From positions 806,001 through 870,000 of the forward strand of contig NZ_BPIJ01000001.1 in the NCBI RefSeq assembly GCF_026004055.1: a DNA stretch of 64,000 nt, read 5' to 3'. Under the pieces are notes generated by a model, which worked only from the letters and a program-made list of their open reading frames with translations, did not search any database and was not told the origin of the DNA. Position numbers and translations under genes: made by a program. The DNA is from Meiothermus sp. Its GTDB lineage: Bacteria; Deinococcota; Deinococci; Deinococcales; Thermaceae. This document shows, piece by piece, positions 1,906 through 60,934 of the stretch (positions are counted from its first letter, which is position 1; each line of letters begins with the position of its first letter).

Positions 1906-2775
1906 TCAGCCTTCAGGCACAAAGTCAAACACCACCAGCTCGGCCGGCGCGCTAATCCGCAGGGGCAACACCGTGGTGCCCAGGCCGCGCGAGACAAAGC
2001 CGGTGATGGGGGCCTTGGCAGGGCCCCGGCCTGCCCAGTACCAGCCGCCCAGGTAGCGCTGCTTATACCTCGAGGGTGTCCAGGGGGCCCCAATGCCAGG
2101 CAGATAGACCTGTCCCCCATGGGTATGCCCGCTCAAAACCAGGTTTACCGGCAGACCGTGGTAGTAATCCCAAAAGTCGGGGTTGTGGGCCAAGGCCAGG
2201 CTGGCCCTGCCTTTGCGGTAGCCGGTCAGGGAAACTTTGGGGTCGGCTTCCTCGGCCCAGTAGTCGTCTACCCCGCTCAGGTAGAGGTCGTCCCGCACAA
2301 ATAGGCCCTGGTTGGCCAGCACCTCAATACCGTATTTGGGCAGCCGTTGCCCCAGATAGCGCTTGACGGCCGGCAGACCGTTGTCGTGGTTGCCCCAGAT
2401 AGCGTAGACCCCCAGCGGCGCCCGCAGCGCACCCAGCGCCTGTAGCAGGGGCTCGAGGTCGGGGGTGGCAGCGTGGTAGAGCTCCTTGAGCCAGACCAGG
2501 CGCAAGCCCGACTCGATGAGATCGCCGGTAATCACGGTTAGATCGGGTTTTTCGGCGTTGGCCGCCCGCACCCAGGCCCGAATCGAGGCCGCATGCACCC
2601 AAGGGCCATAGTGGAGATCGCTTAGCTGCACCACCCGCAAAGGCCGGTCAAGGCCAGGCAGCACCCGCCGTTGACGGTTCACCTCAAACTGATAGGTGCA
2701 CCCCACGGCCAGCCCTCCAGTTCCCGCCGCAAAACCCATCGCGGCCAGCACCAGGAAACGCCGTCGGGTAAGCAT
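1906..2775 (-). CDS. Tat-exported metallophosphoesterase (YaeI-like), paralog 2
   Basis: The 289-residue protein starts with a twin-arginine signal (TRRRFLVLAAMGFAAG), so it is probably exported folded by Tat. The catalytic motifs are all present: LSDLHYGPW, TGDLIESG, WGNHDNG and LSGHTHGGQVYLPG. It resembles the next gene (1041-1850) along the whole catalytic domain but has a longer insert before the GNHD motif (ELYHAATPDLEPLLQALGAL). It lies 80 bp beyond the secA stop on the same strand. A pair of one exported and one probably cytosolic paralog suggests division of labour, but the substrate is unknown. Confidence 0.85.
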   Translation of the reverse strand: MLTRRRFLVLAAMGFAAGTGGLAVGCTYQFEVNRQRRVLPGLDRPLRVVQLSDLHYGPWVHAASIRAWVRAANAEKPDLTVITGDLIESGLRLVWLKELYHAATPDLEPLLQALGALRAPLGVYAIWGNHDNGLPAVKRYLGQRLPKYGIEVLANQGLFVRDDLYLSGVDDYWAEEADPKVSLTGYRKGRASLALAHNPDFWDYYHGLPVNLVLSGHTHGGQVYLPGIGAPWTPSRYKQRYLGGWYWAGRGPAKAPITGFVSRGLGTTVLPLRISAPAELVVFDFVPEG

Positions 2776-2804
2776 AACGCTGCAAGGTTCGACCGATTCT
2801 GGGG

Positions 2805-2820
2805 GGCTCTAAGCAGAGCC
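2805..2820 (-). terminator. Possible secA 3' hairpin
   Basis: A perfect 6-bp stem with a 4-base loop (GGCTCT-AAGC-AGAGCC) lies between the secA stop and the next gene on the same strand. There is no run of T after it on either strand, so it is a weak terminator candidate at best. Confidence 0.25.
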
Positions 2821-2855
2821 ACGGAAGAGCTCCACCTCTACTAAACCCCGCACAT

Positions 2856-5800
2856 CTAACTCTTCTGCTTCTTGCGTTCCTCTCGCTCGAGCCGGCGGCG
2901 CTCTGCGCGGCTCAGACCGGTATGTGCCGAGGCCGCTTTCTGCTGGCGACGTACCGTGAAGGGGTCGCGGCTCTGGGGTAAAGCCGCCGCATCTTCGGGG
3001 CTACCTGCGTTCCCCTGGGCCACCGGGGCCGGGGTAGGCTGGTTCACCTCGACCTGCAGGCGGAAAAGGAACTTGGTGACCTCGCCCTTGATGCTGGCGA
3101 TCATCTCGTTGAAGAAGCGGGTACCCTCGAGCTTGTACTCCTGGAAGGGGTCGCGCTGGCCGTAGCCGCGCAAGAAGATCCCCTGCTTGAGCACGTCCAT
3201 GTTGTGCAGGTGCTCCTTCCAGGCGTTGTCCACGACCTGCAGGGTCACAAAGCGCTCCACCGCCCGCATGAGGCCCGGGCCTTGCCGGTTGATCTCGGCC
3301 TCGCGGGCCTCGTAGGCAGCGCGGGCCATTTCCACGAGCTTCTCGATCCCTTCTTCGGCCTTGAGCTTGCGCAAAGCTTCAAAGTCGAAGTCGGAGAGCG
3401 CGGGGATGTAGTCTACCAGACTCGAGCGCAAGCCTTCGATGTCCCAGTCGTCGGGGTGTTGCTGGGGGTTGAGGTAGTTGGCGGCCACCGTGTCCACGGT
3501 GTCTTCAACCATGGCCAAAGCCCCTTCGCGCACCACCTCGTCGCTGCCCAAGAGCACGTTGCGCCGCTGGGCATAGACCACCTCGCGCTGGCGGGCCATC
3601 ACCTCGTCTAGGCGCAAAAGCTGCTTGCGAATGTCGAAGTTGCGGTCTTCGACCCGCTTCTGGGCCCGCTCAATGGAGCGGGTAACCATCTGGTTCTCGA
3701 TGGGCTCGGAGTCGTCGAAGCCCATTCGGTCGAGCATGGCGATAATGCGCTCGGAGGCAAACAGGCGCATCAGGTCGTCGTCGAAGGAAACATAGAAGCG
3801 GCTGCTACCGGGGTCGCCTTGGCGACCCGAACGACCCCGGAGCTGGTTGTCGATCCGGCGCGACTCGTGCCGCTCGGTACCAATAATATGCAAGCCCCCC
3901 AGCTCCTTGACCCGCACCTCGTCGGCCGCACAGGTATCGCGCAGGCGGCGGATTTCGTCAATCACCGACGGGCGTATGCCGATCTCGGCAGCCAGTTTGA
4001 GGGCCTCCTCATCGTCGCCTTGCACCAGCTTCTTGATGAACAGCTCGACCCGCCACTCCGCACGGGGCTCGAGGCCTTCCTTGCGCAGCAGGTCGGCGGC
4101 CAGGTACTCGGCATTGCCCCCCAGCTTGATGTCGGTGCCGCGTCCGGCCATGTTGGTGGAGATGGTAATGGTCTTGCTGCGGCCTGCCTGGGCCACGATC
4201 TCCGACTCTTTCTCGTGGTATTTGGCGTTCAGTACCTGGTGTGGGATACCCTTGCGGATCAGTTCCAGGGTGTGCACGGCTTTTTTGAGGTAGTTCCAGG
4301 CTACCCGGATATTGCCCTTGGGGGGGATGGTGGACTCGTGCTGCTCGAGTTCGCTCTCACGCAGGGCGCCGGGGCGCTCGAGGGCCTTCTTGAGCCGCTC
4401 CCACTCGGGGCCGCTTTGCTTCTCGATGGCCTTGGCCAACATCTGGGCCCTGGCCTCCAGACGCGGCAAGAAGTGGCGGGGATCTTTGAGCATGGCCGAG
4501 AGCCGCTCGGACTTCTCCACCGAGATGGTGCCCACCAAAACCGGCTGCCCTTTCTCGTACTTCTCGGCAATCTCCTCCACCACTGCATAGAACTTGCCCT
4601 TCTCCGAGCGGTAGACCACATCGGGGTAGTCCTGGCGGATTACGGGGCGGTTGGTGGGGATGCTCACCACGTCCATGGCGTAAATTTCCTGGAATTCTTT
4701 TTCCTCGGTCTTGGCGGTGCCGGTCATGCCCGCGGTCTTCTCGAAGAGGCGGAAGAAGTTCTGGTAGGTGACGGTGGCCAGGGTCTGATTCTCGCGCTCG
4801 ATCTTGACCCCTTCCTTGGCCTCGATGGCCTGGTGGAGCCCCTCGCCGAAGCGGCGGCCTGGCTGCAGACGGCCCGTGAACTCGTCCACAATAATCACCT
4901 GGCCGTCCTGCACGATGTATTCTCGATCCCTGAAGTAGAGTTCTTTGGCCCGGATGGCCTGGGTCAGCATGTGCGCGAGCTCCATGTGCTCGGTGTTGAA
5001 CAGGCCTTCCACACCCAGGAGCTTCTCGGCCCGGGCAATGCCTTGTAGGGTCAGGTGCACGGCCTTTTGTTTTTCTTCGATGGTGTAGTCGCCGGTAGGC
5101 TCGCCCTTGGTGCCCACCGGGGGCTTTTCGCCACGCTCGAGCTTTTGGGCGATCTCGGCCATGCGGTAGTACATGTCGGTGGCTTTTTCCGCCGGGCCGC
5201 TGATGATCAGGGGGGTGCGGGCTTCGTCCACCAGGATCGAGTCCACCTCATCGATAATGGCGTAGTGCAAGGGAGTGTCGTGCCGCAGCACCAGTTGCTC
5301 GGGGGCTACGGCCATATTGTCGCGCAGGTAGTCGAAACCGAGTTCACTGTTGGTCACGTAGGTCACGTCGCAGAGGTAGGCTCTGCGGCGCTCCTCGGGG
5401 CTCGAGTGATTCTGCACCACCCCCACCGAAAGGCCCAGCCCCTTGTAGATGGGCCCCATCCACTCGGCATCGCGCCGGGCCAGGTAGTCGTTGACCGTGA
5501 CCAGGTGAACGCCTTTACCCGCGATGGCATTAAGCGCAACCGCCAGGGTAGCCACCAGGGTCTTACCTTCGCCGGTCTTCATCTCGGCAATCTTGCCCTC
5601 GTGCAAAACCGCGCCCCCAATGAGCTGCACATCGTAGTGGCGCAAGCCCAAAAAGCGCTTGGAAGCCTCGCGGGTCAGGGCAAAGGCCCGAGGCAGCAGT
5701 TCGTCCAGGCTACTGCCGCTTTGGTAGGCTTCCCTCAGCTTGGCGTACTCGGCGGCCAGGTCGTCAATCCGAGAAACTTCGTCCTCGAGGGCATTAACCG

Positions 5801-25389: not shown

Positions 25390-25393
<4 letters not shown>

Positions 25394-26802
25394 ACCACCT
25401 GGGCACAAGTGAGCAGGCCACCCTAAACCGGGGTTGGGTGGTGTTGCTGGCCTTTGCTGCTTTTTTGTTGGCGCTGGGGTACGGGTTTTACGTACTCTGG
25501 CACAACGCTCCAACCCTTTCGTTGCGACCCTCGAGCCGACTGGAAACCCCTCCCCTGCGCGGCAGTCTGGAAGCTGCCGACGGCACCCCGCTGGCCCTGA
25601 GTACCCCCGAAGAGGCCCGCCTGTACCCGCTGGGGCTTTCGGCCACTCAGCTCTTGGGATTTGGCGAACGCAGCAGCGGCAAAGGGCTATCGGGTCTCGA
25701 GTTCGACCTCGAGCCCCTCCTTTCCCAGGGGCAAAGCCTGCGCCTGACCATCGACCCCCAGGTTCAGGCCATTGCCGAGCAAGCCCTGTGGAAAGGCTTA
25801 GGGGCCGCCAAGGCCGACTGGGGCAGCGCGGTGGTGATAGAAAGCAAAACCGGGCGGCTCCTGGCGGTAGCCAACGGCCCGGCCTTCGACCCCACCGCGC
25901 CCCGGCGCAGCAGTGAGCAAGACCCCTCCTGGCGCAACCACGCCTTCGTATACGCGCTGGAGCCTGGTTCAACCATCAAACCCCTCACCGCTGCCGTCTT
26001 GCTGGAAGAAAATATGGCCCGGCTGGACACCAAGGTGTATGCCCCCATGAGCCGCCGCGTTGCAGGTTGGACGATCAATGATGTGGTCAAGCACCCCGAG
26101 ACCCTCACCCTAGGCGAGGTGCTCAAGTACTCGTCCAACGTGGGCATCACCACCCTGGCCGAGCGCATCCCGCGGCAGACTCTATACAACTTCTTCCAAA
26201 AGATGCACTTCATGGATGCCGCGCTTCTGCCACCTTTGTCCTACCAGCCCCGGATTGCCGTGCAGGTCGCGGCCCCGCAGGTGCGCCCACTGAAGCGCTG
26301 GGGGCCTGCCGAATACGCCAACGCCACCTTCGGTCAGGGTTTCCTGATTACGCCGCTGCACCTGGCCACGGCCTACAACATCCTGGCGAACGACGGGGTC
26401 TACCGCCAGCCCATCTTGTTCGAGGGCAACACCTCCCAAAGCGCGGTGGTTTTTAGGCCCCAGGTGGCCCGCGAGATTCGCAGAGCCCTGACCGAGGGCA
26501 TCGCCGAAAAGGCCAAACTGCCTGGCTATGTCCTGGGGGGCAAAACCGGCACAGCGCAGGTGGTGGTAAATGGGCGGTACAGCAGCAGTGTGTATGCGGC
26601 GCTGTTCGCCGGTTTCATTCCGGCCAACACCCCCCGTGTGACGGTGGTGGTCACCCTCTTCCACCCCAAAGGCAACCTTATCCATGGCTCCCAGGTGGCG
26701 GCCCCCATCTACCGCGAGATTGCGGCCCGGCTCTTCGCCTTGTGGGGGGTTCCCCCCCTGTTGGACTCCTCATCCGGCAAGGGTACACTGGTCAACCGAT
26801 GA
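25390..26802 (+). CDS. ftsI: Peptidoglycan transpeptidase FtsI (PBP3)
   Basis: Septal class B penicillin-binding protein. The start is TTG 25390, overlapping the ftsL stop, with AAAGGAGG 5-6 bases upstream; no ATG is near. The 470-residue protein has one membrane helix (about 14-36), a short non-catalytic domain, and the transpeptidase domain with S194-T-I-K197, S248-S-N250 and K385-T-G387. It is much shorter than E. coli FtsI (588), mainly in the N-terminal module. Its stop is overlapped by the start of a 12-codon ORF. Confidence 0.95.
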
Positions 26803-26837
26803 GTGTTTTGTGCAACTTGCAGATAATACTCACGTGA
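26799..26837 (+). CDS. Micro-ORF between ftsI and murF (12 codons)
   Basis: ATG 26799 overlaps the ftsI stop (ATGA) and the frame ends at TGA 26835-26837, 4 bases before the murF ATG. The encoded peptide MSVLCNLQIILT is hydrophobic. It is listed because three other dcw gaps show the same arrangement; alone it would not be called. The sequence may equally contain a promoter-like GATAAT. Confidence 0.2.
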   Translation: MSVLCNLQIILT

Positions 26838-26841
26838 GGCG

Positions 26842-28131
26842 ATGGTGGGAATCAAAGCGGACAAAGAACTAAGACCCGACTGGGTAGCCAGCCTGACGGG
26901 CGGGAAATTGCATGAAGGGGCCGCTGTGGCCCATGACCTGCACTGGGACTCGAGGCAGGTAGCACCCGGGGTGGCCTTTTTTGCCCTACCGGGAACCAAG
27001 ACCCATGGACGCGCCTTCGGCCAACAGGCCCTAGAGGCCGGGGCGGCTTTTGTGGTCACCGACCTGGCCCACCCCGGCAGCGTGCAGGTCGAGAAGCCCG
27101 AACGGGCTTTGGTGGCCGTAGGGCGGGCCTTGCGCGACCGCTTCGACGGGCTGGTGCTGGCGGTAGGGGGCAGTTCGGGCAAAACCACGGCCAAGGAGTG
27201 TCTAGCCCAGGGCTTAGGCTGGCCGGCCCCCGAGGGCAACCTCAACAACGCCCCCGGCCTGACCCGGTTTTTCTTTCACTTGGAAGAGAGCGAGGGCTGT
27301 GTGGTGGAGCTCGGCATAGACCGGCTGTTGGAGATGGCCGAGCTGACCTACCTGGCCCGGCCCGACTTTGCCGTGCTCACGAGCCTGGGGGTGGAGCACC
27401 TGGAAGGGCTGGGGAACCTCGAGAACGTAATCCGCGAGGAAAGCTGGCTCTTGCGGGTGAGCCCGCTGCGCCTGACCAGCACCCAGGCCGCCGAGCTGGT
27501 GCAGTTACCGGGCCTGAAGACCTACGGCATTGGGGCCGGCGACTTTCGGGCCGAAGCCGTAGAGATGAACCTGGAGACTGCCCGCTTCCGTTTCGAGGGG
27601 CACCCCGTGACCCTCCCCTACCCTGGGGTGGGGCCGGTGATGGGGGCCCTGGCCGCCCTGGCTGCAACCCGGATGCTGGACAAGCCCCTGGGCGAGACCA
27701 TCGAGCGACTGGCCGAGCTCAAACTGCCCTCCGGACGAATGCAGCGGCTTCGGTTGGGTGGGGTGGATTTCATCCACGATGCTTACAACTCGAATCCCCT
27801 TTCCTTCCGGGCCGGGATGGAGTTCCTGCAAACCCAGCCGGGACGCAAATGGCTGGTGCTGGGCCGCATGGCCGAGCTAGGCGAGGAGGCCCTGAAGCAT
27901 CATCTCGAGGCCGCCGAGCTGGCCGCCAGCATCAGCCCCCACCTGGTATTTATCGGGCAATTTGCCCCACAACAGGCCGCCCTGGTAGGGGGCACCGCCG
28001 TGGAGACCCTCGAGGAGGCCACCGACTATCTGGCCAAGCAGGTCAGACCCGGCGACCTGGTGTATCTGAAGGCCTCGCGCAGTGTGGGCCTCGAGCGCCT
28101 GCTCGAGCTGTGGCCCCGGGAGGAGGCATGA
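26842..28131 (+). CDS. murF: UDP-MurNAc-tripeptide--D-Ala-D-Ala ligase MurF
   Basis: Adds D-Ala-D-Ala to the UDP-MurNAc tripeptide. The 429-residue protein has the Mur ligase P-loop VGGSSGKTTAKE, then GNLNNAPGLTRFFF, which is specific to MurF (GNLNNxxG), and HDAYNSNPLSFRAGMEFL in the C-terminal domain. ATG 26842 is the start; an adjacent GTG at 26845 is possible. murE, which usually precedes murF, is absent from this cluster. The stop overlaps the next gene by 4 bases (GGAGGC-ATGA). Confidence 0.94.
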   Translation: MVGIKADKELRPDWVASLTGGKLHEGAAVAHDLHWDSRQVAPGVAFFALPGTKTHGRAFGQQALEAGAAFVVTDLAHPGSVQVEKPERALVAVGRALRDRFDGLVLAVGGSSGKTTAKECLAQGLGWPAPEGNLNNAPGLTRFFFHLEESEGCVVELGIDRLLEMAELTYLARPDFAVLTSLGVEHLEGLGNLENVIREESWLLRVSPLRLTSTQAAELVQLPGLKTYGIGAGDFRAEAVEMNLETARFRFEGHPVTLPYPGVGPVMGALAALAATRMLDKPLGETIERLAELKLPSGRMQRLRLGGVDFIHDAYNSNPLSFRAGMEFLQTQPGRKWLVLGRMAELGEEALKHHLEAAELAASISPHLVFIGQFAPQQAALVGGTAVETLEEATDYLAKQVRPGDLVYLKASRSVGLERLLELWPREEA

Positions 28132-51710: not shown

Positions 51711-54263
51711 CTAGCCTACGCTCCCCTCACGGCACACATCCTTTACGCTACAGCTACGGCAACGAAAGCCGGGGTTGGGTTTCACCACGCCAGTTTGGTA
51801 TTGAGCGTGGGCCTGCTGCACCCGCTCCAGAAGGTTTTCCAGTGCATTCCAAAGCCGCTCGATGGGCTTTCCATACACCATAATCGGCTGACCCAGCACC
51901 GGCCAGGCCCAGATATACACCTGTCGGATGCGACCTCTGTAAGTCTTGAGCAAGTACCCAGCGGCCCAGCGCTCGCTCCAGCGATCGCGCACCTGCTCTT
52001 CGGCTTCTTCGGGAGGGGTGTTGGGAGCCACAAAGCGATACAGATGGGCTTCGGAACCTTTGCGCAAAACCCCATCCAACCGAGCATGTAGACCTGCTCC
52101 CTCGAGCTTGAAACCCAGGTTCAGCTCGCCTAAAAGGGGGTAATGATGCCGCAACCAACCCTCAGCCTGGGGAAACTGCCGAGAAAGAGCCTCGAGACGT
52201 GCAGGCACCAGGTTTTCCTTGCGCAGTTCGTGTACAAGCTGCTGCCATCCCTCGAGCTCGGGCTCTCTAAGGCCAAGCTGCTCGGCCCAAAGCTGAAAAC
52301 CACACTCTCGGTAGCGTCGCAGGCTCTCAACCGAGGGCGGGCCCAAAGAAACCCGGCCCAGCGGGGCCTGGTAGCCCTCGCTCTGGGCCAGCTCCAGCAA
52401 GCTGGCCGAGGGCAGCTTGGGCAGGTAGGGCGGCCTGGCCTGCTGGAGGAGGAGGGGCTCGGGCTCGAGGGGCCCCTCCTGGCTGGCCTCGGGGTAGGTA
52501 ACGATCACTTCATCGGCGCGGGCCTGGAGTTCCTGCAAGAGCAGCCGATCGCGCCCCAGAAAACGCTTGGGCAACAGGCCCCCGGCCTGCCGCAGGGCTT
52601 CCTCCAGGCTTGCTCTCAGCTCCTCGGGCACGAAATAGTCTTCTTCCTCGCCGGTGCTGTAGGAGCCCTCCACCGCGTAGGTCAGGTAGAGTTTCTTCCA
52701 GCGCTGCCCCGAGGCCAGGGTAGGCGTGAGCAGGGCTACCCCTCCCGGCGGGCGATGCGGCTCGTAGGTCTCGGCCAGCAGGGCCGCCCACCAGTGGCGA
52801 AAATCGGGGCCGGTGGCGATGCGGTGGGCCTCCAAGGCCCGCTCCATCAGGATGGCCCGACGGGGGCTGTGCCGCACCTCGGGGAGTGAGTCCAGGAGTT
52901 CCTGGGCCCAGGCCAGCGAAGGGTGCAGACCGGAGGCATGAAGGGAGTCAAAAGCTGACCCTTCCTCGCCCGGCGGCTTCAGGCGCCCCAGCCAGGAGGC
53001 CCAGACTGTCTGCATCCCTATTTCGGTCGCCAGCCGGGTGATGGCCTCGAGGCCTACCAGACTGCGTTCCAGGGCCACCCGACCCAACGGAGCCAGGTCG
53101 GGCACGGCCAGCAAGCGGGTGGGAGTGGGGTAGTCGGGCAGCTCGAGCAGCTCGAGCAAAAGCCGCCCCTCGGGGGTATCGGCAGCGGTACCGGCCCGCA
53201 TATCCACCAGGGGAAGTCCATACTCGTCGGCCAAGGTCAGGAGTGCCGGAATCCGCGACTCCGGCGCCACCACCGCAATATCCAGAGGTTTTAGCCCTTG
53301 CGCCAGGTCGCGCTTGATTGAGCGCAACACCCAGCGGGCCTCGCTGACCGGGTTCTGGGCACGGTAGGTCTGGGTGTGGATGGTTCGGGGTGCTAGGTGC
53401 TCGTCCGGCACCAACCCCGGCGGGGCTTCCGGCAAGCTGACCCAGACCGGAATGTGGCAGGAGAGAGCCCGCAAGAGGCGAAGCTCGAGCACCCCCAGCT
53501 CGCGGAAACCGTCCACAATCAGGAGGTCAGGCTCGAGGCCGACAGGCGCGAGCCCACTGCCCGAGGAGGCGGGTTCTACAGATTGCGTAGGCCTCGTCTG
53601 ACGCTCGAGGCCGACAGGCGCGAGCCCACTGCCCGAGGAGGCGGGTTCTACAGATTGCGTAGGCCTCGTCTGACGCTCGAGGCCGACAGGCGCGAGCCCA
53701 CTGCCCGAGGAGGCGGGTTCTACAGATTGCGTAGGCCTCGATTTTTGCTCGAGCGAAGCCTGTCCCTGCTCCAGCAAGGCCAGCGCCCCGGCACGAAAGT
53801 CGTCGTAGTCCCAGCGACCCCAGCTCGCCTTGAGTTCCTCGTAGCGGGTGTAGACCTTTTGCAGACGCCGGACCTCGGGGCTGTGGGACGGTAGGGCCTC
53901 GGGGTTGACCCCATTGCGTTTGGCCTCGGCGATGGCACGGGCAAACAAGCGGGCCTCACCAGGGCTGGGCAAGGGGGCCTCGTCGGACATCAGCGCCTCT
54001 CCTACCAGCGCCACCCGGCCCGGCCCGGTCAGAATGGGCTTGAGGCCAAAGCTAGCAGCCAGCAGCCGGTAGTAAAGCTGTTGCGAGGTAAGCACCTCGA
54101 GGCCCAGCACCGCGCCCTTCTGGGTAGCTCGTCGGTAGACATAGGCTTTTTGGACGGGCAAACAAACCCACCATACCCGCTTGCGCTGTTGCAGGTAAGA
54201 GTGTGCGACCTCGAGCAAGCGGGTGGTCTTGCCCGAGGCCGGAGGGCCGACGAGGAGGTGCAC
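51711..54263 (-). CDS. AddB-like recombination protein with degenerate nuclease site
   Basis: The 850-residue protein begins with a helicase-like Walker A (VGPPASGKTTRLLEVAHS) and has a Walker-B-like LLIVDGFRELG after an inserted repeat region. The C-terminal domain has the four-cysteine pattern of AddB iron-sulphur nucleases: C654 (RRYRECGFQLW) and C835, C838, C844 (FRCRSCSVKDVC). The nuclease site has D730 (ARLDGV), but where D/E-x-K should follow it reads LYRFVAP (741-747), so the nuclease looks dead. AddAB-type complexes process double-strand ends for recombination. The UvrD-like gene two genes away may be its partner. Family call good; activity inferred. Confidence 0.82.
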   Translation of the reverse strand: MHLLVGPPASGKTTRLLEVAHSYLQQRKRVWWVCLPVQKAYVYRRATQKGAVLGLEVLTSQQLYYRLLAASFGLKPILTGPGRVALVGEALMSDEAPLPSPGEARLFARAIAEAKRNGVNPEALPSHSPEVRRLQKVYTRYEELKASWGRWDYDDFRAGALALLEQGQASLEQKSRPTQSVEPASSGSGLAPVGLERQTRPTQSVEPASSGSGLAPVGLERQTRPTQSVEPASSGSGLAPVGLEPDLLIVDGFRELGVLELRLLRALSCHIPVWVSLPEAPPGLVPDEHLAPRTIHTQTYRAQNPVSEARWVLRSIKRDLAQGLKPLDIAVVAPESRIPALLTLADEYGLPLVDMRAGTAADTPEGRLLLELLELPDYPTPTRLLAVPDLAPLGRVALERSLVGLEAITRLATEIGMQTVWASWLGRLKPPGEEGSAFDSLHASGLHPSLAWAQELLDSLPEVRHSPRRAILMERALEAHRIATGPDFRHWWAALLAETYEPHRPPGGVALLTPTLASGQRWKKLYLTYAVEGSYSTGEEEDYFVPEELRASLEEALRQAGGLLPKRFLGRDRLLLQELQARADEVIVTYPEASQEGPLEPEPLLLQQARPPYLPKLPSASLLELAQSEGYQAPLGRVSLGPPSVESLRRYRECGFQLWAEQLGLREPELEGWQQLVHELRKENLVPARLEALSRQFPQAEGWLRHHYPLLGELNLGFKLEGAGLHARLDGVLRKGSEAHLYRFVAPNTPPEEAEEQVRDRWSERWAAGYLLKTYRGRIRQVYIWAWPVLGQPIMVYGKPIERLWNALENLLERVQQAHAQYQTGVVKPNPGFRCRSCSVKDVCREGSVG
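53531..53740. repeat. 72-bp in-frame tandem repeat, about 2.9 copies
   Basis: Units start at 53531, 53603 and 53675 (period 72), identical by eye, the third stopping at about 53740. Each adds 24 residues (RPTQSVEPASSGSGLAPVGL and on) to the AddB-like protein, residues ~175-245. Each unit is bounded by CGAGGCC and its inverse GGCCTCG. Confidence 0.95.
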
Positions 54264-54935: not shown

Positions 54936-57329
54936 TCACCCCACCACCTCGAGCCTTGCGTAGCGCAGCGCCAGCCTGCGCACCCCATCCGCAAAGGCCA
55001 CGGTGGCCACCCCATCCTCCAGGTTCACCACCAGTCCGGTGCCAAACTGAATATGCCGCACCTTCTGGCCGGGCTTGAACACGGGCGGTTTGGGGGCAGA
55101 AGACGGCCTGAGGAGGAAGCGCTCGAGGTCGGCAAACTCGCCCGCTGGCCCCTGGCCCGGCGCCACATCGAAGGCCTCCCAGAGGCTTCTGGCCTCGGGG
55201 GAAAGCCCCAGCGCTTCCAGCCAGCCGGCCTGCTCGGCCCGGGCAAAAAGCCGCAGCACCTTGGCGGCCACCTCGGGGGCTTGGGCGGCGTTCCACCACT
55301 GATACAAGTAGCGTTCCAGGCCCAGCCCGTACGCGCCCTGGGCCAGGGCCAGGGTCTGGGCGGTGGAGAGTTCTTCAGGCGGGAGGGCCAGGGCCTCGCC
55401 CACCCGCTCCACCGCCCCCAGCACCTGCGGGTACCCTGCCTCCTGCAAAAAGGGCGAGAGCGGCAGGCTGGAGAGGGCGTACAGGTAGGTATGGGCCGAG
55501 CTACGGGTCAGGGCCACGTAGAAGAGGCGGCGCTCTTCCTCGAGGTTCTCCGAGCCGCTGTAGGGCAGGGTGCCCTGGTTGCAGTCGGGGATGAAGACCA
55601 GGGGCCACTCCAGACCCTTGGCCCGGAAGATGGTCATCAGGGCCACCCGTTCGCGGGGGTCTTGGGCAGGGTCGCCCAGGTGCTCCTGGGCCAGAAGCTC
55701 GAGGTGCCGCAGCAGCTCGGCCACGCTGCCCTTGTCGCGGGCGTACTCCAAAAAAGCCCGCACCCCCTCGGCCCGGCCGGCCCCCACCTCGTAAAAGCCC
55801 GAGGAGCGCAGCAGGTGGCGGCGGTAGTCGAGGCGGGCCTCGAGCGCTTCCAGCACCGCGTGGGCCGAGCCCCGCCCCAGCACCCCGCCCAGCCATTCAA
55901 ACAAATCGGCCAGCTCAATCAGACGCTTGGCCACCCGCTCCTCTGCCCCGGCCGCCTCCACCCTGAGCGCATCCAGAAGCAAGGCCCCCTGCTCCACCCG
56001 CCGCCAGACCGCATCGGCCACGGCCCGGCTCAAATAGCGCTTGGGGGTGTTGTAGATTTGCAGCCAGAAGCGTTTGGAATCCCCTTCCAGAGGGCCCGGC
56101 TGCGCCAGGCGCAGGTAGGCCAGGAGCCCCTGGATCTCCGGGCGCTGGTAGAAGGGGGTGCTGCCCACCACCCGGTAGGGAATCTGCCGCTCGATCAGGG
56201 CCTGCTCGAGGTAGGGCGTCTGGGCATAAAGCCGCACCAGCACCACCATCTCGGAAGGGCGATGGCCCAGGGCCAAAAGCCCGGCAATATCGCTCGCCAG
56301 GCTTTGGGCCTGGGCGGGCAGGTGGGGCTCCAGGCGCACGTGCACCCGGCCCGCAAAGCCTTTGGTCAGGCTCAGGCGCTTGGGCTCGCGCTGCTGGTTC
56401 TGTGCAATCACCCGCCCGGCTAAGGCCACCTGCGGGGCCGGGCAGCGGAAGGTGTCGCGGATGAGGTATTTGCAGGCATTGTAGCGCCGCTCGAACTCGA
56501 GGATGAAGCGCGGGCTGGCCCCCCGCCACTCGTAGATGGTCTGGTCGTCGTCGCCCACCGCCATGTAGTTGCGGTGGGGGGCGGTCACTAGGTCGAGCAG
56601 CTCCGACTGGGCCAGGTTCACGTCCTGAAACTCGTCCACCAGCACGGCCTGGAAGGCTTTTTGCACGGTTTGCAGGATGTCCGGGTGGCGCACCAGCACC
56701 TCCCAGCCCTGCATTAGCATATCGTCGAAGGTAAGCAGCCCGGCCTCGCGCCGCACCTGCTCGAAAAGCCGGTACAGCTCGAGGTACCACTCGAGCCCCT
56801 TGGGCGCTTCGGCCTGCATGGCTACCCTAAGGGCCTGAGGGGGCAGCGCGGCCTCTTCCAGCTTGGCGTACTGCAGGTTGCCCTTGCAGGCCCCCACATA
56901 GCTCAGGAAGTCTTCGGGCTCGAGGTTCTCCAACTCGGGCGCCCAGGAGAGCTTCAACTCGCGGGCCCGCCGCAGGGTACGCTGCAAAAGGGCCTGCTCG
57001 GCGCCCTCTTCCTTGACCTCGGCCAGCTTCAAAAGCCCCTCCGCGGCGGCCTTGCGCACGATGCGGTAGCCCAGCGCGTGCAGAGTGGAGACCTGCACCC
57101 CCTGGGTGTGGGGCCAGCGGGCCAGGGCGCGCCTCAGGTCGTCTACTGCCATGCGGCTGAAGGAGGTGACCAAAATCTTGCGCGGCTCAAACACCCGCTC
57201 GCGCACCAGGCGCTCCAAGCGGTGCACCAGCGCGGTAGTCTTGCCCGCCCCGGCCACCGCAAACACCAGCGCGGGCCCTTCGTCGTGGGCTACGATGGCT
57301 TGCTGTTCGTCGGTCAGGCGCAAAGGCAC
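54936..57329 (-). CDS. UvrD/PcrA-like SF1A DNA helicase
   Basis: The 797-residue protein shows the SF1A motif set: LTDEQQAIVAHDEGPALVFA, Walker A AVAGAGKTTALVHRLERL, SFSRMAVDDLRRALA, VLVDEFQDVNLAQSEL (motif II), VGDDDQTIYEWRGASP (III), FRCPAP (IV region), IFRAKGLEWPLVFIPDCNQG (V) and EEERRLFYVALTRS (VI). The C-terminus ends with a Tudor-like domain (GQKVRHIQFGTGLVVNLEDG), as in UvrD/PcrA. No nuclease domain follows, so it is not a full AddA. GTG 57329 is the likely start. It may act in repair or pair with the AddB-like protein. Confidence 0.9.
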   Translation of the reverse strand: MPLRLTDEQQAIVAHDEGPALVFAVAGAGKTTALVHRLERLVRERVFEPRKILVTSFSRMAVDDLRRALARWPHTQGVQVSTLHALGYRIVRKAAAEGLLKLAEVKEEGAEQALLQRTLRRARELKLSWAPELENLEPEDFLSYVGACKGNLQYAKLEEAALPPQALRVAMQAEAPKGLEWYLELYRLFEQVRREAGLLTFDDMLMQGWEVLVRHPDILQTVQKAFQAVLVDEFQDVNLAQSELLDLVTAPHRNYMAVGDDDQTIYEWRGASPRFILEFERRYNACKYLIRDTFRCPAPQVALAGRVIAQNQQREPKRLSLTKGFAGRVHVRLEPHLPAQAQSLASDIAGLLALGHRPSEMVVLVRLYAQTPYLEQALIERQIPYRVVGSTPFYQRPEIQGLLAYLRLAQPGPLEGDSKRFWLQIYNTPKRYLSRAVADAVWRRVEQGALLLDALRVEAAGAEERVAKRLIELADLFEWLGGVLGRGSAHAVLEALEARLDYRRHLLRSSGFYEVGAGRAEGVRAFLEYARDKGSVAELLRHLELLAQEHLGDPAQDPRERVALMTIFRAKGLEWPLVFIPDCNQGTLPYSGSENLEEERRLFYVALTRSSAHTYLYALSSLPLSPFLQEAGYPQVLGAVERVGEALALPPEELSTAQTLALAQGAYGLGLERYLYQWWNAAQAPEVAAKVLRLFARAEQAGWLEALGLSPEARSLWEAFDVAPGQGPAGEFADLERFLLRPSSAPKPPVFKPGQKVRHIQFGTGLVVNLEDGVATVAFADGVRRLALRYARLEVVG

Positions 57330-57429: not shown

Positions 57430-59289
57430 TCACGCAAACCGGTACAACTTCCCCGAGAGCGTAGCCACATACAGCGCCCCCCGGTAAGGCAGGGGCGGCA
57501 CCTGGATGGGATCCAGGCCCGAAGCCTCGAAGAGCAGCCGCCCGCTCTGGGTGTCCACCCCCAGTACCCGGCCTTCCTCGGTGCCCAGGTAGAGCACCCC
57601 GTGGGCAATGGAGGGGGCCGCCGTGACCTTGCCAACCTCGAGGGCCCACACCTCGTCGCCGGTCTTCTGGTCGAGGGCGTAGAGTTTCCCGGCCCAGCTC
57701 GCAGCATAGAGGTTCCGCTCGTCCAGCGCCGGCGAACCCCACAGCTCGCCCTCGAGGTCGAAGCTCCACTGCACCTCGCGGGTCAGGGGGTCGAAGGCAT
57801 GGATTTCACCGGCCCAGGTGGGGATGAAAAGCAGGCCGCCCCGGGCGGGCAGGGCAGTGTGAACGGCCCCCGTCTCCACCTTGTAGCGCAGGTGCCCGCT
57901 TTGAGGGTCGAGGGCGTACAACCATCCGCCTTCGCTGGCCACCAACAAGAGCCCGCGGTACAGGGTGGGCGAGGCCGAAAGCTCGCTGCCGGCCTGAAAG
58001 CCCCAGCGCAGGGTACCGCTGGTATCCAGGGCATACAAAAAACCATCGCGCCCGGCCAGGTAGATTAGGTCGGCCACCAGGGGCGCGGCGGTAATCTCGG
58101 CTCGGGTGGGAAAGCTCAGGATGGGCCGCCCGGAGAGGGTCATTCCGGTCAGGCGGCCATCCCAGGCCGCCACATACACCCGCTCGCCCGCCACCACCGG
58201 CGGGGCCGAGACCTCGTCGCCCAGGCGCTGGCGGTAGACCGAGCCGTCGGTCAGATCGAGACGGGCGATGCCCTGCCCGGCCCCCACCCACAAGCTGCCC
58301 TCCTGGGCAACCAGCTCCCCCGGCCAGGCCACCTGTCCGGCCAGGTCGAAGGTGCCCCGTAACTCCAGTTGCTCGGGCCGGGCTGGGCCGGTGGGATAGT
58401 GCCCGCTGCGGCTGGCCCCTGCTCGTGGCGTAGCCGAGAGACTTTCGCGGTAACTGCGCAGGGTTTCCTCTAGTATTGCGTGGGCTGCTGCGGCATGGGC
58501 CGGTCGGTCGGTGGGGTTTTTTTGCAAGAGCGACAGAATCAGGCTCGAGGCCTCGGCAGGAATGGCCGGGTTGAGGCTCTGGGGCGGCTTGGGCGGCTCA
58601 TAGACGTGCTGGTAGAGCACCGACTGGTCGTTCTCGCCCTCGAACAAGGGCTTACCGGTAAAGGTGCGGTAAAGCACCGCCCCAAAGCTATACAGGTCGG
58701 CCTGGGGGGTGAGGGGCAGGCCCTTGGCCTGTTCGGGGGCCATGTATTCCGGCGTACCCACGGTAATGCCGGTACGGGTGAAGTGGCGGCTTTCTTGCAT
58801 CAGGTAGGCCAGACCAAAGTCCATCACCTTGGGCTGGCCCTCGGGTGTGACCAGGATGTTGCGCGGGGTCAGGTCGCGGTGGATTACGCCGCGGTGGTGA
58901 AGATGCCCCAGGGCTTCCAGCACCCGCGCCGAGGCCGAGAGGAGGCGCAGGCCCTCGAGGCCGTCCTCAAAGGGGCCCAGACAGTCGTAGCTGCCCCCTT
59001 CCACCAGCTCCATCACAAAATAGGTGCGGCCCTCTTCCTCGCCCAGGTCGAAGACCTGCACCACGCCGGGGTGCGAGAGCTTGGACAGGGCCTTGACCTC
59101 CCGGAAAAAGCGGTTACGCTCGCTGGGGTGCAGGTAAGTATGCAGAATTTTGACGGCCACCAGGCGATCCATGCGCTCATCGGTGGCTCGCCAGACCTCG
59201 GCCATCCCCCCCTCGCCCAGGGGGTCCACAAGCCTGTAGCGTCCGGCCAGCTTCACCTGATTCATGGCACTCATGGGCTCTGCCACCAT
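57430..59289 (-). CDS. Soluble Ser/Thr protein kinase with PQQ-type beta-propeller
   Basis: The 619-residue protein has an N-terminal kinase domain: G-loop PLGEGGMAEVWR (~23-34), Lys in VAVKIL (K47), HRDLTPRN (137-144) and DFG (157-159), then GTPEYMAPEQAKGLP. The usual Lys of HRDLKPxN is Thr (T141). Residues ~310-619 are repeated propeller blades (VAGERVYVAAWDGRLTGMTL, DLIYLAGRDGFLYALDTSGT, YRGLLLVASEGGWLYALDPQ, LDERNLYAASWAGKLYALDQ, AHGVLYLGTEEGRVLGVDTQ). No membrane helix joins them, so it is cytosolic. Deinococcus RqkA, a DNA-damage kinase, has this architecture. ATG 59289 fits a TATATT box. Confidence 0.9.
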   Translation of the reverse strand: MVAEPMSAMNQVKLAGRYRLVDPLGEGGMAEVWRATDERMDRLVAVKILHTYLHPSERNRFFREVKALSKLSHPGVVQVFDLGEEEGRTYFVMELVEGGSYDCLGPFEDGLEGLRLLSASARVLEALGHLHHRGVIHRDLTPRNILVTPEGQPKVMDFGLAYLMQESRHFTRTGITVGTPEYMAPEQAKGLPLTPQADLYSFGAVLYRTFTGKPLFEGENDQSVLYQHVYEPPKPPQSLNPAIPAEASSLILSLLQKNPTDRPAHAAAAHAILEETLRSYRESLSATPRAGASRSGHYPTGPARPEQLELRGTFDLAGQVAWPGELVAQEGSLWVGAGQGIARLDLTDGSVYRQRLGDEVSAPPVVAGERVYVAAWDGRLTGMTLSGRPILSFPTRAEITAAPLVADLIYLAGRDGFLYALDTSGTLRWGFQAGSELSASPTLYRGLLLVASEGGWLYALDPQSGHLRYKVETGAVHTALPARGGLLFIPTWAGEIHAFDPLTREVQWSFDLEGELWGSPALDERNLYAASWAGKLYALDQKTGDEVWALEVGKVTAAPSIAHGVLYLGTEEGRVLGVDTQSGRLLFEASGLDPIQVPPLPYRGALYVATLSGKLYRFA

Positions 59290-59321: not shown

Positions 59322-60269
59322 TCAGAACAGTCGGTCACCGGGTTGGAGACGGGCACCCCGGGCCCAGTCCGCTGCTAGCATGGGCTTTTTGCCTTCGGGC
59401 TGAACCTCGAGCAGGCTGAGGCCCCCTCCCCCGGTAGCAACCACCAGGGCCTCGGCCATACGCACGACCGTTCCAGGGGCAAGCGGCGGGGTATTCGCTA
59501 AATTCACCGTGCTCGACATACGCACCACTTTTACCCGCTTTCCCCGATACTCAAACCAACTGCCCGGCCAGGGCTGCACCCCCCGGTGGCGGTTGTAGAT
59601 TTCCTGTGCGGTGCGCTCCCAGACAATCTTTCCGTCGTCTTTGTGCAGCATAGGAGCATGGGTGCCCTCCGGGGGCTGGGGGGTGGGTTGCAGGTGCTCG
59701 AGGTCGGCCAGGGCCGCCAGCAGCAGCTCAATGCCCTTGTCACGCAGGCGCTCGGAGAGCTCCAGGGCGGTTTCGTCGGGGCCCACCGGGGTACGCCAGC
59801 GGGCCACCACCGGCCCGGTGTCCATGCCCACATCGGTCTGCATAATGCAAACCGCGGTCTCGGTTTCGCCGTTGATGAGCGTCCACTGCACCGGCGCCGG
59901 GCCCCGGTACTTGGGCAGGTCGGAGGGGTGCAGGTTCAGAAAGCCGTATTTGGGCACCTCTAGCAGCTCGGCGGGGAGGATTTTGCCATACGCCGCGGTC
60001 ACGGCCACCTCGGGGGCCAGCTCCCTAAAAAGCGAGAGAAACTCGAGGTTTTTGCGCAAGCGGGCAGGTTTTTCGACCCGCAGGCCCCTTTCCTCGGCCC
60101 AGGCCGCCACCGGGCAGGGGGTGAGCTTTAGGCCTCGTCCGGCGGGCTTGTCGGGCTGGGTGACCACCAGTACCACCTGGTGTTGGCGGTGTAGGGCCTC
60201 GAGCACCGGCACCGCCCAGGCCGGCGAGCCGAAAAAGGCAATTCGGCGGCGCAGAGGTTGAGAGGTCAT
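59322..60269 (-). CDS. fmt: Methionyl-tRNA formyltransferase
   Basis: Formylates initiator Met-tRNA. ATG 60269 fits the family (RRRIAFFGSPAWAVPVLEAL); the frame is open to 60326 without support. Length 315. Seen: VTQPDKPAGRGLKLTPCPVA, AYGKILPAELLEVPKYGFLN, LHPSDLPKYRGPAPVQWTLI (SLLPxxRG-like with PxxxRGxxP) and MQTDVGMDTGPV, plus the C-terminal domain NRHRGVQPWPGSWFEYRGK. Its partner def lies 62 bp upstream on the same strand, so formylation and deformylation genes form a unit. Confidence 0.96.
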   Translation of the reverse strand: MTSQPLRRRIAFFGSPAWAVPVLEALHRQHQVVLVVTQPDKPAGRGLKLTPCPVAAWAEERGLRVEKPARLRKNLEFLSLFRELAPEVAVTAAYGKILPAELLEVPKYGFLNLHPSDLPKYRGPAPVQWTLINGETETAVCIMQTDVGMDTGPVVARWRTPVGPDETALELSERLRDKGIELLLAALADLEHLQPTPQPPEGTHAPMLHKDDGKIVWERTAQEIYNRHRGVQPWPGSWFEYRGKRVKVVRMSSTVNLANTPPLAPGTVVRMAEALVVATGGGGLSLLEVQPEGKKPMLAADWARGARLQPGDRLF

Positions 60270-60279
60270 GACGGATTGT

Positions 60280-60331
60280 TCAAAAGGCAACAAACCATTG
60301 ACTATCGACTCTCGACTATGAACCATTGACC
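60280..60331. repeat. Degenerate tandem of CCATTGACTATCGACT-like units
   Basis: The fmt-def gap reads as a run of near-repeats: CCATTGACTATCGACTCTCG, then ACTATGAACCATTGACC. Similar words occur in the dctM-pxpA gap (about 47496-47566, inverted). Likely simple decayed repeats. Confidence 0.4.
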
Positions 60332-60934
60332 CTACCTGGCCTGCCCCAACCGTGCAGCCTCCTCGCGCAAGAACGCCCTGGCCTGCCGCTGGAAGTCGGC
60401 CAGGTCTTCGCGGTGTTCCTCGAGGAACTTTTGCTTGTCGGCAAAGTTCATCCGCTGGAAGAAGAGGATGCCGTCGAGGTGGTCAATCTCGTGCTGCAGC
60501 ACCACCGCCAGGTAGCCCTCGGCCTCGAGCGTCTTCTTTTCACCTTTTTCGTTCTGGTACTCCACCCGCACCCTAAGGTCGCGCTGGGCCCCTTCGGCGT
60601 AGAGACCGGGCAGGGATAAGCAGCCCTCGAGGATGGACTGCCGCCCCTCGCGATAGGTGATGACCGGGTTCGCCATCACGTAAAGCTCTTTGACGCGGGT
60701 CTTGAGGGGGGCTTCGGGGCCTTCTTCCTCCTCTTCTTCCTGGTACTCCGCGGCCACAAAGAGCCGCTGGCTGATACCGACCTGAGGGGCCGCGAGCCCC
60801 ACCCCTCGGGCCTCGAACATGGTCTCGAGCATGTCTTGGGCCAGCTCGGGAATACCGCTAAAATCCTGCACCGGCAGGGCTTTTTTCTTCAAAACCGGGT
60901 CGCCATACAGGCGGATGGGAAGAATCTGGGCCAT
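60332..60934 (-). CDS. def: Peptide deformylase
   Basis: Removes the formyl group from new proteins. The 200-residue protein has all three metal-site motifs: GVGLAAPQVGISQRLFVA (GxGLAAPQ), ILEGCLSLPGLYAE (EGCLS) and VVLQHEIDHLDGILF (HExDH). An acidic insert (YQEEEEEEGPEAPLKTRV) lies between the first two motifs. A C-terminal helical tail (EEHREDLADFQRQARAFLRE) is longer than in E. coli. ATG 60934; just upstream of fmt. Confidence 0.97.
   Translation of the reverse strand: MAQILPIRLYGDPVLKKKALPVQDFSGIPELAQDMLETMFEARGVGLAAPQVGISQRLFVAAEYQEEEEEEGPEAPLKTRVKELYVMANPVITYREGRQSILEGCLSLPGLYAEGAQRDLRVRVEYQNEKGEKKTLEAEGYLAVVLQHEIDHLDGILFFQRMNFADKQKFLEEHREDLADFQRQARAFLREEAARLGQAR

Follow-up and report, generated by a model that had tools for sequence, protein, structure and literature searches.

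A Deinococcota kinase-propeller family and its possible pairing with a regulator of peptidoglycan-precursor genes

We analyzed a 64-kb stretch of Meiothermus DNA (the window) that carries a gene for a Ser/Thr kinase with a PQQ/BamB-type beta-propeller (57430..59289, minus strand). Judged from sequence, this gene is best explained as the Meiothermus member of a kinase-propeller family that has been inherited vertically in the Deinococcota. Our best overall explanation, which we hold with moderate confidence, pairs the kinase with a regulator that acts on peptidoglycan-precursor genes. The family, its synteny, the DNA arrays near the regulator gene, and the co-occurrence of the kinase and regulator genes can all be read from the genomes compared here.

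The kinase-propeller protein and its family

The 619-aa open reading frame (ORF) was assigned by Pfam matches, orthologs across the phylum, and a structure model. The start codon is probably Met6 (59274) or Met9 (59265), since a stop codon interrupts the aligned N-terminal stretch in several sister species; in locus L076, a TAG falls between the Met1 and Met6 positions. Residues 17 to 267 (58489..59241, minus strand) form a protein kinase domain (Pfam PF00069, Pkinase; E 3.6e-50), and the propeller part gave a PQQ_2/BamB-like Pfam match (E 1.1e-30). An AlphaFold2 model built with 40 family members (mean pLDDT 91.1, pTM 0.90) showed a kinase fold and a propeller with eight blades at about residues 305 to 619 (57433..58377, minus strand). 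VIA-align matched the modeled propeller to YxaL (Z 41), the designed protein Cake8 (Z 40.9), BamB (Z 36-37), and quinoproteins (Z 35-37.5). No membrane segment was found in the whole protein, where the top 19-residue Kyte-Doolittle mean was 1.02. These results confirmed the original prediction of a soluble kinase with a PQQ propeller, and the kinase domain followed by a C-terminal PQQ-type propeller agrees with the RqkA-like architecture that it had named.

The proposal that the kinase senses a quinone or redox state found no support. The fold alone is silent on PQQ binding because the propeller matches both PQQ-binding and non-binding proteins. A canonical PqqE over the curated cutoff was found in 0 of 111 genomes of the phylum and also in 0 of 14 control genomes, so that this negative result is a weak one with no positive control. 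With no canonical PqqE found, quinone sensing by the kinase appears doubtful.

The catalytic loop reads HRDLT (residues 137 to 141; 58867..58881, minus strand), with T141 where Lys is usual. In a 40-sequence ortholog alignment, K47, D139, T141, N144, and D157-F158-G159 were invariant columns, and the replacement of Lys by T141 with K47, D139, N144, and DFG retained was found exactly as first numbered. The residues that serve as criteria for an active Hanks-type kinase, the VAIK Lys (K47), HRD Asp (D139), catalytic Asn (N144), and DFG Asp (D157), are all present; the catalytic-loop Lys (HRDxK) is the residue that is absent. Two residues past the Thr, most orthologs have Arg or Lys (HRDLTPRN in 26/40, HRDLTPKN in 6/40). 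Because all 40 orthologs carry HRDLT, T141 is a fixed character of the family, and the motif also occurs outside the phylum in 5 of the 21 nearest nondeinococcal loci, a set chosen partly by that motif. The view of the loop as altered and unusual is thus not supported. The source assembly (3.18 Mb) encodes five PF00069 kinases, and the other four retain the Lys (HRDIKPGN, HQDVKPSN, HRDIKPDN, and HRDVKPDN). Another kinase of the same genome (L001 559-2982, minus strand) has NHL-like propeller repeats by eye and overlaps a PP2C-type phosphatase-like ORF (2589-3347, minus strand).

Our phylum sample comprised 111 genomes from five families, none recognizable as Deinococcaceae. We refer to Thermus as g4, to a Marinithermaceae-like family as f4, and to Trueperaceae as f5, the naming of f4 and f5 being partly inference. 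Per-genome counts cover the G-numbered genomes and leave out loci L078 to L134, which largely repeat those genomes; alignment rows L173 (A2) and L107 (A4) were left out for internal stop codons. The kinase search gave a match in 111/111 genomes, and an ortholog was tabulated in 106/111 (two partial), with all five families represented. Three genomes had propeller fragments only and were omitted from the ortholog table (G065, G070, and G077), and a tabulated ortholog was absent from two (G042 and G088). Forty orthologs formed one clade against 25 other kinases in the tree (support 100/98).

Orthologs split over two overlapping frames in G016 (C1:752334-754185), G038 (C1:1787522-1789329), and G029 (C1:2442450-2444266) are the product of frameshift or sequencing error. 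Truncated kinase copies (residues about 10 to 196, 79-80% identity) were seen in M. luteus and M. taiwanensis (L135, L136), and one truncated copy lies on the 271-kb plasmid NZ_CP021131.1 (186732-187286).

Gene neighborhoods of the kinase and of its RHH-like partner

In the window, the kinase gene begins 32 nt behind fmt (methionyl-tRNA formyltransferase; 59322..60326, minus strand; TIGR00460), upstream of which is def (peptide deformylase; 60332..60934, minus strand; NCBIfam), and fmt lies directly upstream of the kinase in 18/18 Meiothermus genomes. A UvrD/PcrA-like helicase (54936..57329, minus strand; UvrD-helicase E 1.8e-51) lies 100 nt downstream. The helicase is thus the same-strand neighbor that had been predicted, and the AddB-like identity given to an 850-aa protein (51711-54263, minus strand) comes down to a PDDEXK_1 match under the Pfam cutoff (E 0.0018), with no NCBIfam match. 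Within this ORF, a perfect 72-bp tandem repeat of 2.9 copies runs in frame (53531-53740) and is possibly a variable-number array.

In 16 of 18 Meiothermus genomes, no more than 1.8 kb separates the helicase from the kinase, and in the other two (G006 and G014), there is a contig end. Outside the genus, ortholog-level helicases were present only in two g3 genomes, on contigs other than that of the kinase, and g2, g4, and g5 gave no ortholog-level match (0/30 genomes). Conservation of the helicase next to the kinase had been named beforehand as the check on a coupling to recombination and break-repair genes; it fails outside the genus, and the coupling was not borne out. Because the adjacency is confined to Meiothermus, the repair-gene neighborhood is recent and local, and the helicase is probably functionally unrelated to the kinase.

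In other genera, an ORF of 69 to 78 aa lies on the kinase strand between murA and the kinase. This ORF, which we call rhh for its ribbon-helix-helix (RHH)-like product, is related by sequence to T. thermophilus TTHA0139 (PDB 5ytp/5ytq; E 1.1e-35), and TTHA0138, the next locus tag, is probably the kinase of T. thermophilus. The family has 28 invariant positions among 26 sequences, and a model of the protein showed a basic N terminus and two main helices. Weak CopG-/aCcr1-type matches were obtained with PHROG; no Pfam or NCBIfam family scored over its cutoff, and there was no Pfam RHH match. A Foldseek search of the monomer model against the PDB returned nothing significant and no RHH protein, a result that says nothing against the fold. 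The family had no match on plasmids.

We found rhh in 106/111 genomes, 105 of which also have the kinase. Among genomes with both genes of a pair, murA and rhh stand head-to-head in 102/105, and rhh and the kinase are in tandem in 73/105, with <150 nt between alignments in 68; in many Thermus genomes, the rhh stop codon is 1 nt from the kinase start. The tandem order is kept in Thermus, the Marinithermaceae-like family, and Trueperaceae. Kinase and rhh are apart in the other 32/105 (all of g1, g2, g3, and f3, 2/3 f2 genomes that carry both, and 4/37 in f5), so a physical kinase-rhh operon is not required. Likewise, the kinase is divergent from murA in 26/27 Thermus, 1/1 g5, 12/14 f4, 29/39 f5, and 1/4 f2 genomes and in none of the Meiothermus (0/18), g2 (0/2), g3 (0/2), or f3 (0/4) genomes. 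In the genome of the window (G000), murA (C1:1263218-1264492) and rhh (C1:1264683-1264898) are intact, and the next downstream gene is not the kinase. In two genomes (G100 and G110), rhh is together with the kinase and murA is on another contig.

A tRNA in the murA-kinase gap was considered as a candidate and discarded, as six loci had none and the gap carries the rhh ORF. In Thermus, ridA and meaB come after the kinase. YvcK/CofD-like and RapZ-like genes are tied to wall metabolism elsewhere, and such genes were seen behind murA in Trueperaceae (L055 11576-16956, minus strand, and others).

A half-site array and the predicted regulon

We read 68 distinct murA-rhh gap sequences and found a conserved array in which 6-bp half-sites, TRCNCA / TGNGYA, recur at 9-bp spacing. 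Expectation maximization (EM) on these gaps gave the motif TGaG.At..TACaCAt.aT.C.CA, with a log-likelihood for 24 lineage representatives of 289.9, versus 79.4 +/- 3.9 in simulation (12 sets). Because the sequences compared are related, part of the array's conservation is shared descent. Four half-sites spaced 9 bp apart make up the Meiothermus array, as in TGTGTATAT TACACATCA TGCTCACAT TGAGCATAG. With zero mismatches, the pattern TGNGYANNNTNCNCANNNTRCNCA gave 79 rows, spread over 55/111 genomes, where an independent-base model predicts about 0.053 per genome, and 36 of these rows are at murA, including that of G110, which has rhh on another contig. The reversed pattern gave 0 matches at zero mismatches and also 0 at one mismatch, where the independent-base estimate was about 1 per genome; we therefore relied on the estimate together with gene context. 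There were two exceptions at murA: with up to 3 mismatches to a stricter pattern allowed, G006 had no match there, and the sole such match in G012 lies away from murA. At zero mismatches, the matches in Thermus were confined to the murA site, apart from a coding repeat in G027.

Scanning the window with the matrix from the murA-rhh sites identified a predicted operator of the RHH regulator 10 nt before murF (26809..26832, plus strand), which also matches the pattern. This site scored 27.8 bits; the next non-overlapping site scored 7.4, and the maximum over 60 simulated 64-kb sequences was 17.5. The predicted target, murF (UDP-MurNAc-tripeptide--D-Ala-D-Ala ligase; 26842..28131, plus strand), has TIGR01143 as its best family at 271 bits, just below the 288.6 cutoff, and upstream of the predicted operator is an FtsI/PBP2-type transpeptidase (25390..26802, plus strand; NCBIfam at L200:82-1491 and translation). 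No array site was present at the kinase gene itself within the 64-kb window.

The murF sites recur in 9/18 Meiothermus genomes (G000, G007, G010, G011, G013, G014, G018, G020, and G021) and in three Trueperaceae (G085, G088, and G095), and in G000 and the same three Trueperaceae, the genomes for which we read the gene upstream, the site falls at the FtsI/PBP2-type-murF junction. Sites at ddl were found in 10/18 Meiothermus genomes (G007, G008, G010, G011, G012, G013, G015, G017, G018, and G020) and in one of the Trueperaceae (G077), the murF and ddl genes beside sites being identified by NCBIfam and tblastn. Most Meiothermus ddl arrays overlap the first ddl codons, so coding constraint may contribute to them; in G017 and G077, the array lies upstream. 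Based on these sites, murA, murF, and ddl are the predicted regulon of the RHH regulator.

Further sites were found singly at glmS (G054), beside genes for MNIO-family enzymes (MbnB/TglH-like, PF05114) in three genomes of three families (G012, G050, and G056; L185, L206, and L208), and beside genes for VIT-VWA proteins (G059 and G062). In three Trueperaceae (G074, G087, and G088; L242, L245, and L247), a gene begins at the array, and the two of the three that were scanned had no NCBIfam name. GC-rich matches in a coding region that by eye we take to be DNA polymerase-like (polA) in four genomes (G000, G005, G010, and G014) look like chance and were set aside.

A proposed circuit, its alternatives, and known systems

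We propose that the ancestral partner of the kinase was the RHH-like regulator of the TTHA0139 family, whose gene directly precedes that of the kinase and runs divergently from murA. By binding the half-site array between murA and rhh and, in part of the phylum, those at murF and ddl, this regulator would control how much peptidoglycan precursor is supplied. The propeller, which is cytoplasmic, may sense the state of wall synthesis or division through a protein or metabolite and gate the kinase, which, co-transcribed with rhh, may phosphorylate the regulator or, alternatively, MurA and divisome proteins. The Meiothermus kinase gene would have moved behind def-fmt while murA-rhh and its array stayed together elsewhere in the genome. 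In this scheme, we infer the DNA binding by the regulator, its phosphorylation by the kinase, and the sensed signal.

An alternative with a minor share of our confidence is that the RHH regulator alone controls the wall genes, and the kinase shares its promoter and serves another pathway as a general cell cycle or stress kinase. The near-universal murA-rhh pair, set against the 32/105 genomes in which the kinase stands apart, is consistent with this, as are ridA and meaB behind the Thermus kinase; however, Thermus, f4, and f5 retain the rhh-kinase tandem, even with murA elsewhere (G100 and G110), and the two genes co-occur in nearly every genome. We think it improbable that the protein is an RqkA-type DNA damage kinase tied to break repair through its neighbors. 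Its architecture is the same as that described for RqkA (DR_2518) of D. radiodurans, and the helicase is adjacent in Meiothermus; moreover, RqkA loss is reported to lower radiation survival, and its activity to be stimulated by PQQ and DNA ends, with RecA, PprA, FtsZ, and DivIVA among the proteins that it modifies (PMC11007091, PMC10100863). However, the helicase adjacency is specific to one genus, the loci published as flanking DR_2518 are not repair genes, DR_2519 being described as an MntR/DtxR or MerR-type regulator and DR_2517 as a hypothetical protein, and the deep synteny of the kinase is with murA-rhh.

It is highly unlikely that T141 makes the protein a weak kinase or pseudokinase acting as a scaffold. 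The catalytic-loop Lys is missing across the whole family, as this would require, but K47, D139, D157, and N144 are invariant, and the family does not satisfy the three-residue definition of a pseudokinase (PMC12599244). If RqkA is an ortholog, one active member exists.

Pairing of the kinase with the RHH regulator is our preferred reading. Its broadest form, a Deinococcota-wide kinase-RHH circuit through which the signal of a cytoplasmic propeller would control how murA, murF, and ddl are transcribed and which would have RqkA as a member, we advance only tentatively. None of the papers searched names TTHA0139 or TTHA0138, and among the titles listed on RHH proteins and murA in Thermus (12 of 276) and on MurA and kinases in Deinococcus (12 of 23), none concerned such a circuit. 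The kinase alone is a further member of a known kinase type, and the proposed kinase-RHH-murA circuit is, as far as we have seen, a new form of kinase control over wall synthesis. The proposal provides a partner, a DNA target, and a pathway for the kinase that can be tested in the genetically tractable Thermus thermophilus, for which regulator structures are solved, and it posits a transcriptional regulon for peptidoglycan precursors across the whole phylum.

PASTA kinases (PknB, PrkC, and StkP) control wall synthesis. PknB is the nearest solved kinase domain (E about 1e-51), and the PASTA kinase model NF033483 is the top NCBIfam match, by the kinase part only (278.6 bits versus a cutoff of 450), but the window kinase has neither PASTA repeats nor a membrane segment. 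In its genome, the best PASTA match is on contig C3, which holds none of the five PF00069 kinases, so the usual Gram-positive wall kinase was not seen there. AfsK of Streptomyces likewise joins a kinase to a PQQ-type propeller (NF053615 match; PMC1262709), but the window kinase reaches 161 bits against the NF053615 cutoff of 1300, and the AfsK target is described as AfsR (PMC1262709).

The regulator can be compared with ribbon-helix-helix proteins of the CopG/Arc/MetJ type. The partner protein belongs to the TTHA0139 family and shares with such regulators the basic N terminus and two main helices of its model as well as repeated half-sites; it differs in having no Pfam or NCBIfam family over cutoff and only weak PHROG matches.

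D. radiodurans has Ser/Thr/Tyr kinases with PQQ repeats, according to a 2005 survey (PMC1262709). Compared by architecture as described, the window kinase is likely an ortholog of RqkA (DR_2518), which also combines a Ser/Thr kinase with a PQQ-type propeller. RqkA is labeled a membrane protein in a table and in a cited title (PMC4401554), whereas the Meiothermus protein is soluble, and the gene neighbors of the two differ. No Deinococcus was among the 80 named-genome loci listed for the kinase or among the matches listed from plasmid searches (40 of 1039 and 60 of 957). The f2 and f3 loci were considered as a DR_2517/DR_2519-like neighborhood, but inspection by eye of eight loci showed no such gene up to three genes away from the kinase. 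RqkA is reported to modify FtsZ, FtsA, and DivIVA (PMC11007091, PMC6052341, PMC10100863), which would fit a role in wall synthesis or division if RqkA is an ortholog. Were the circuit to hold with RqkA as a member, RqkA, known as a DNA damage kinase, would at root be a wall synthesis and division kinase recruited to a damage checkpoint, and the link of this radiation response kinase to cell division would be recast.
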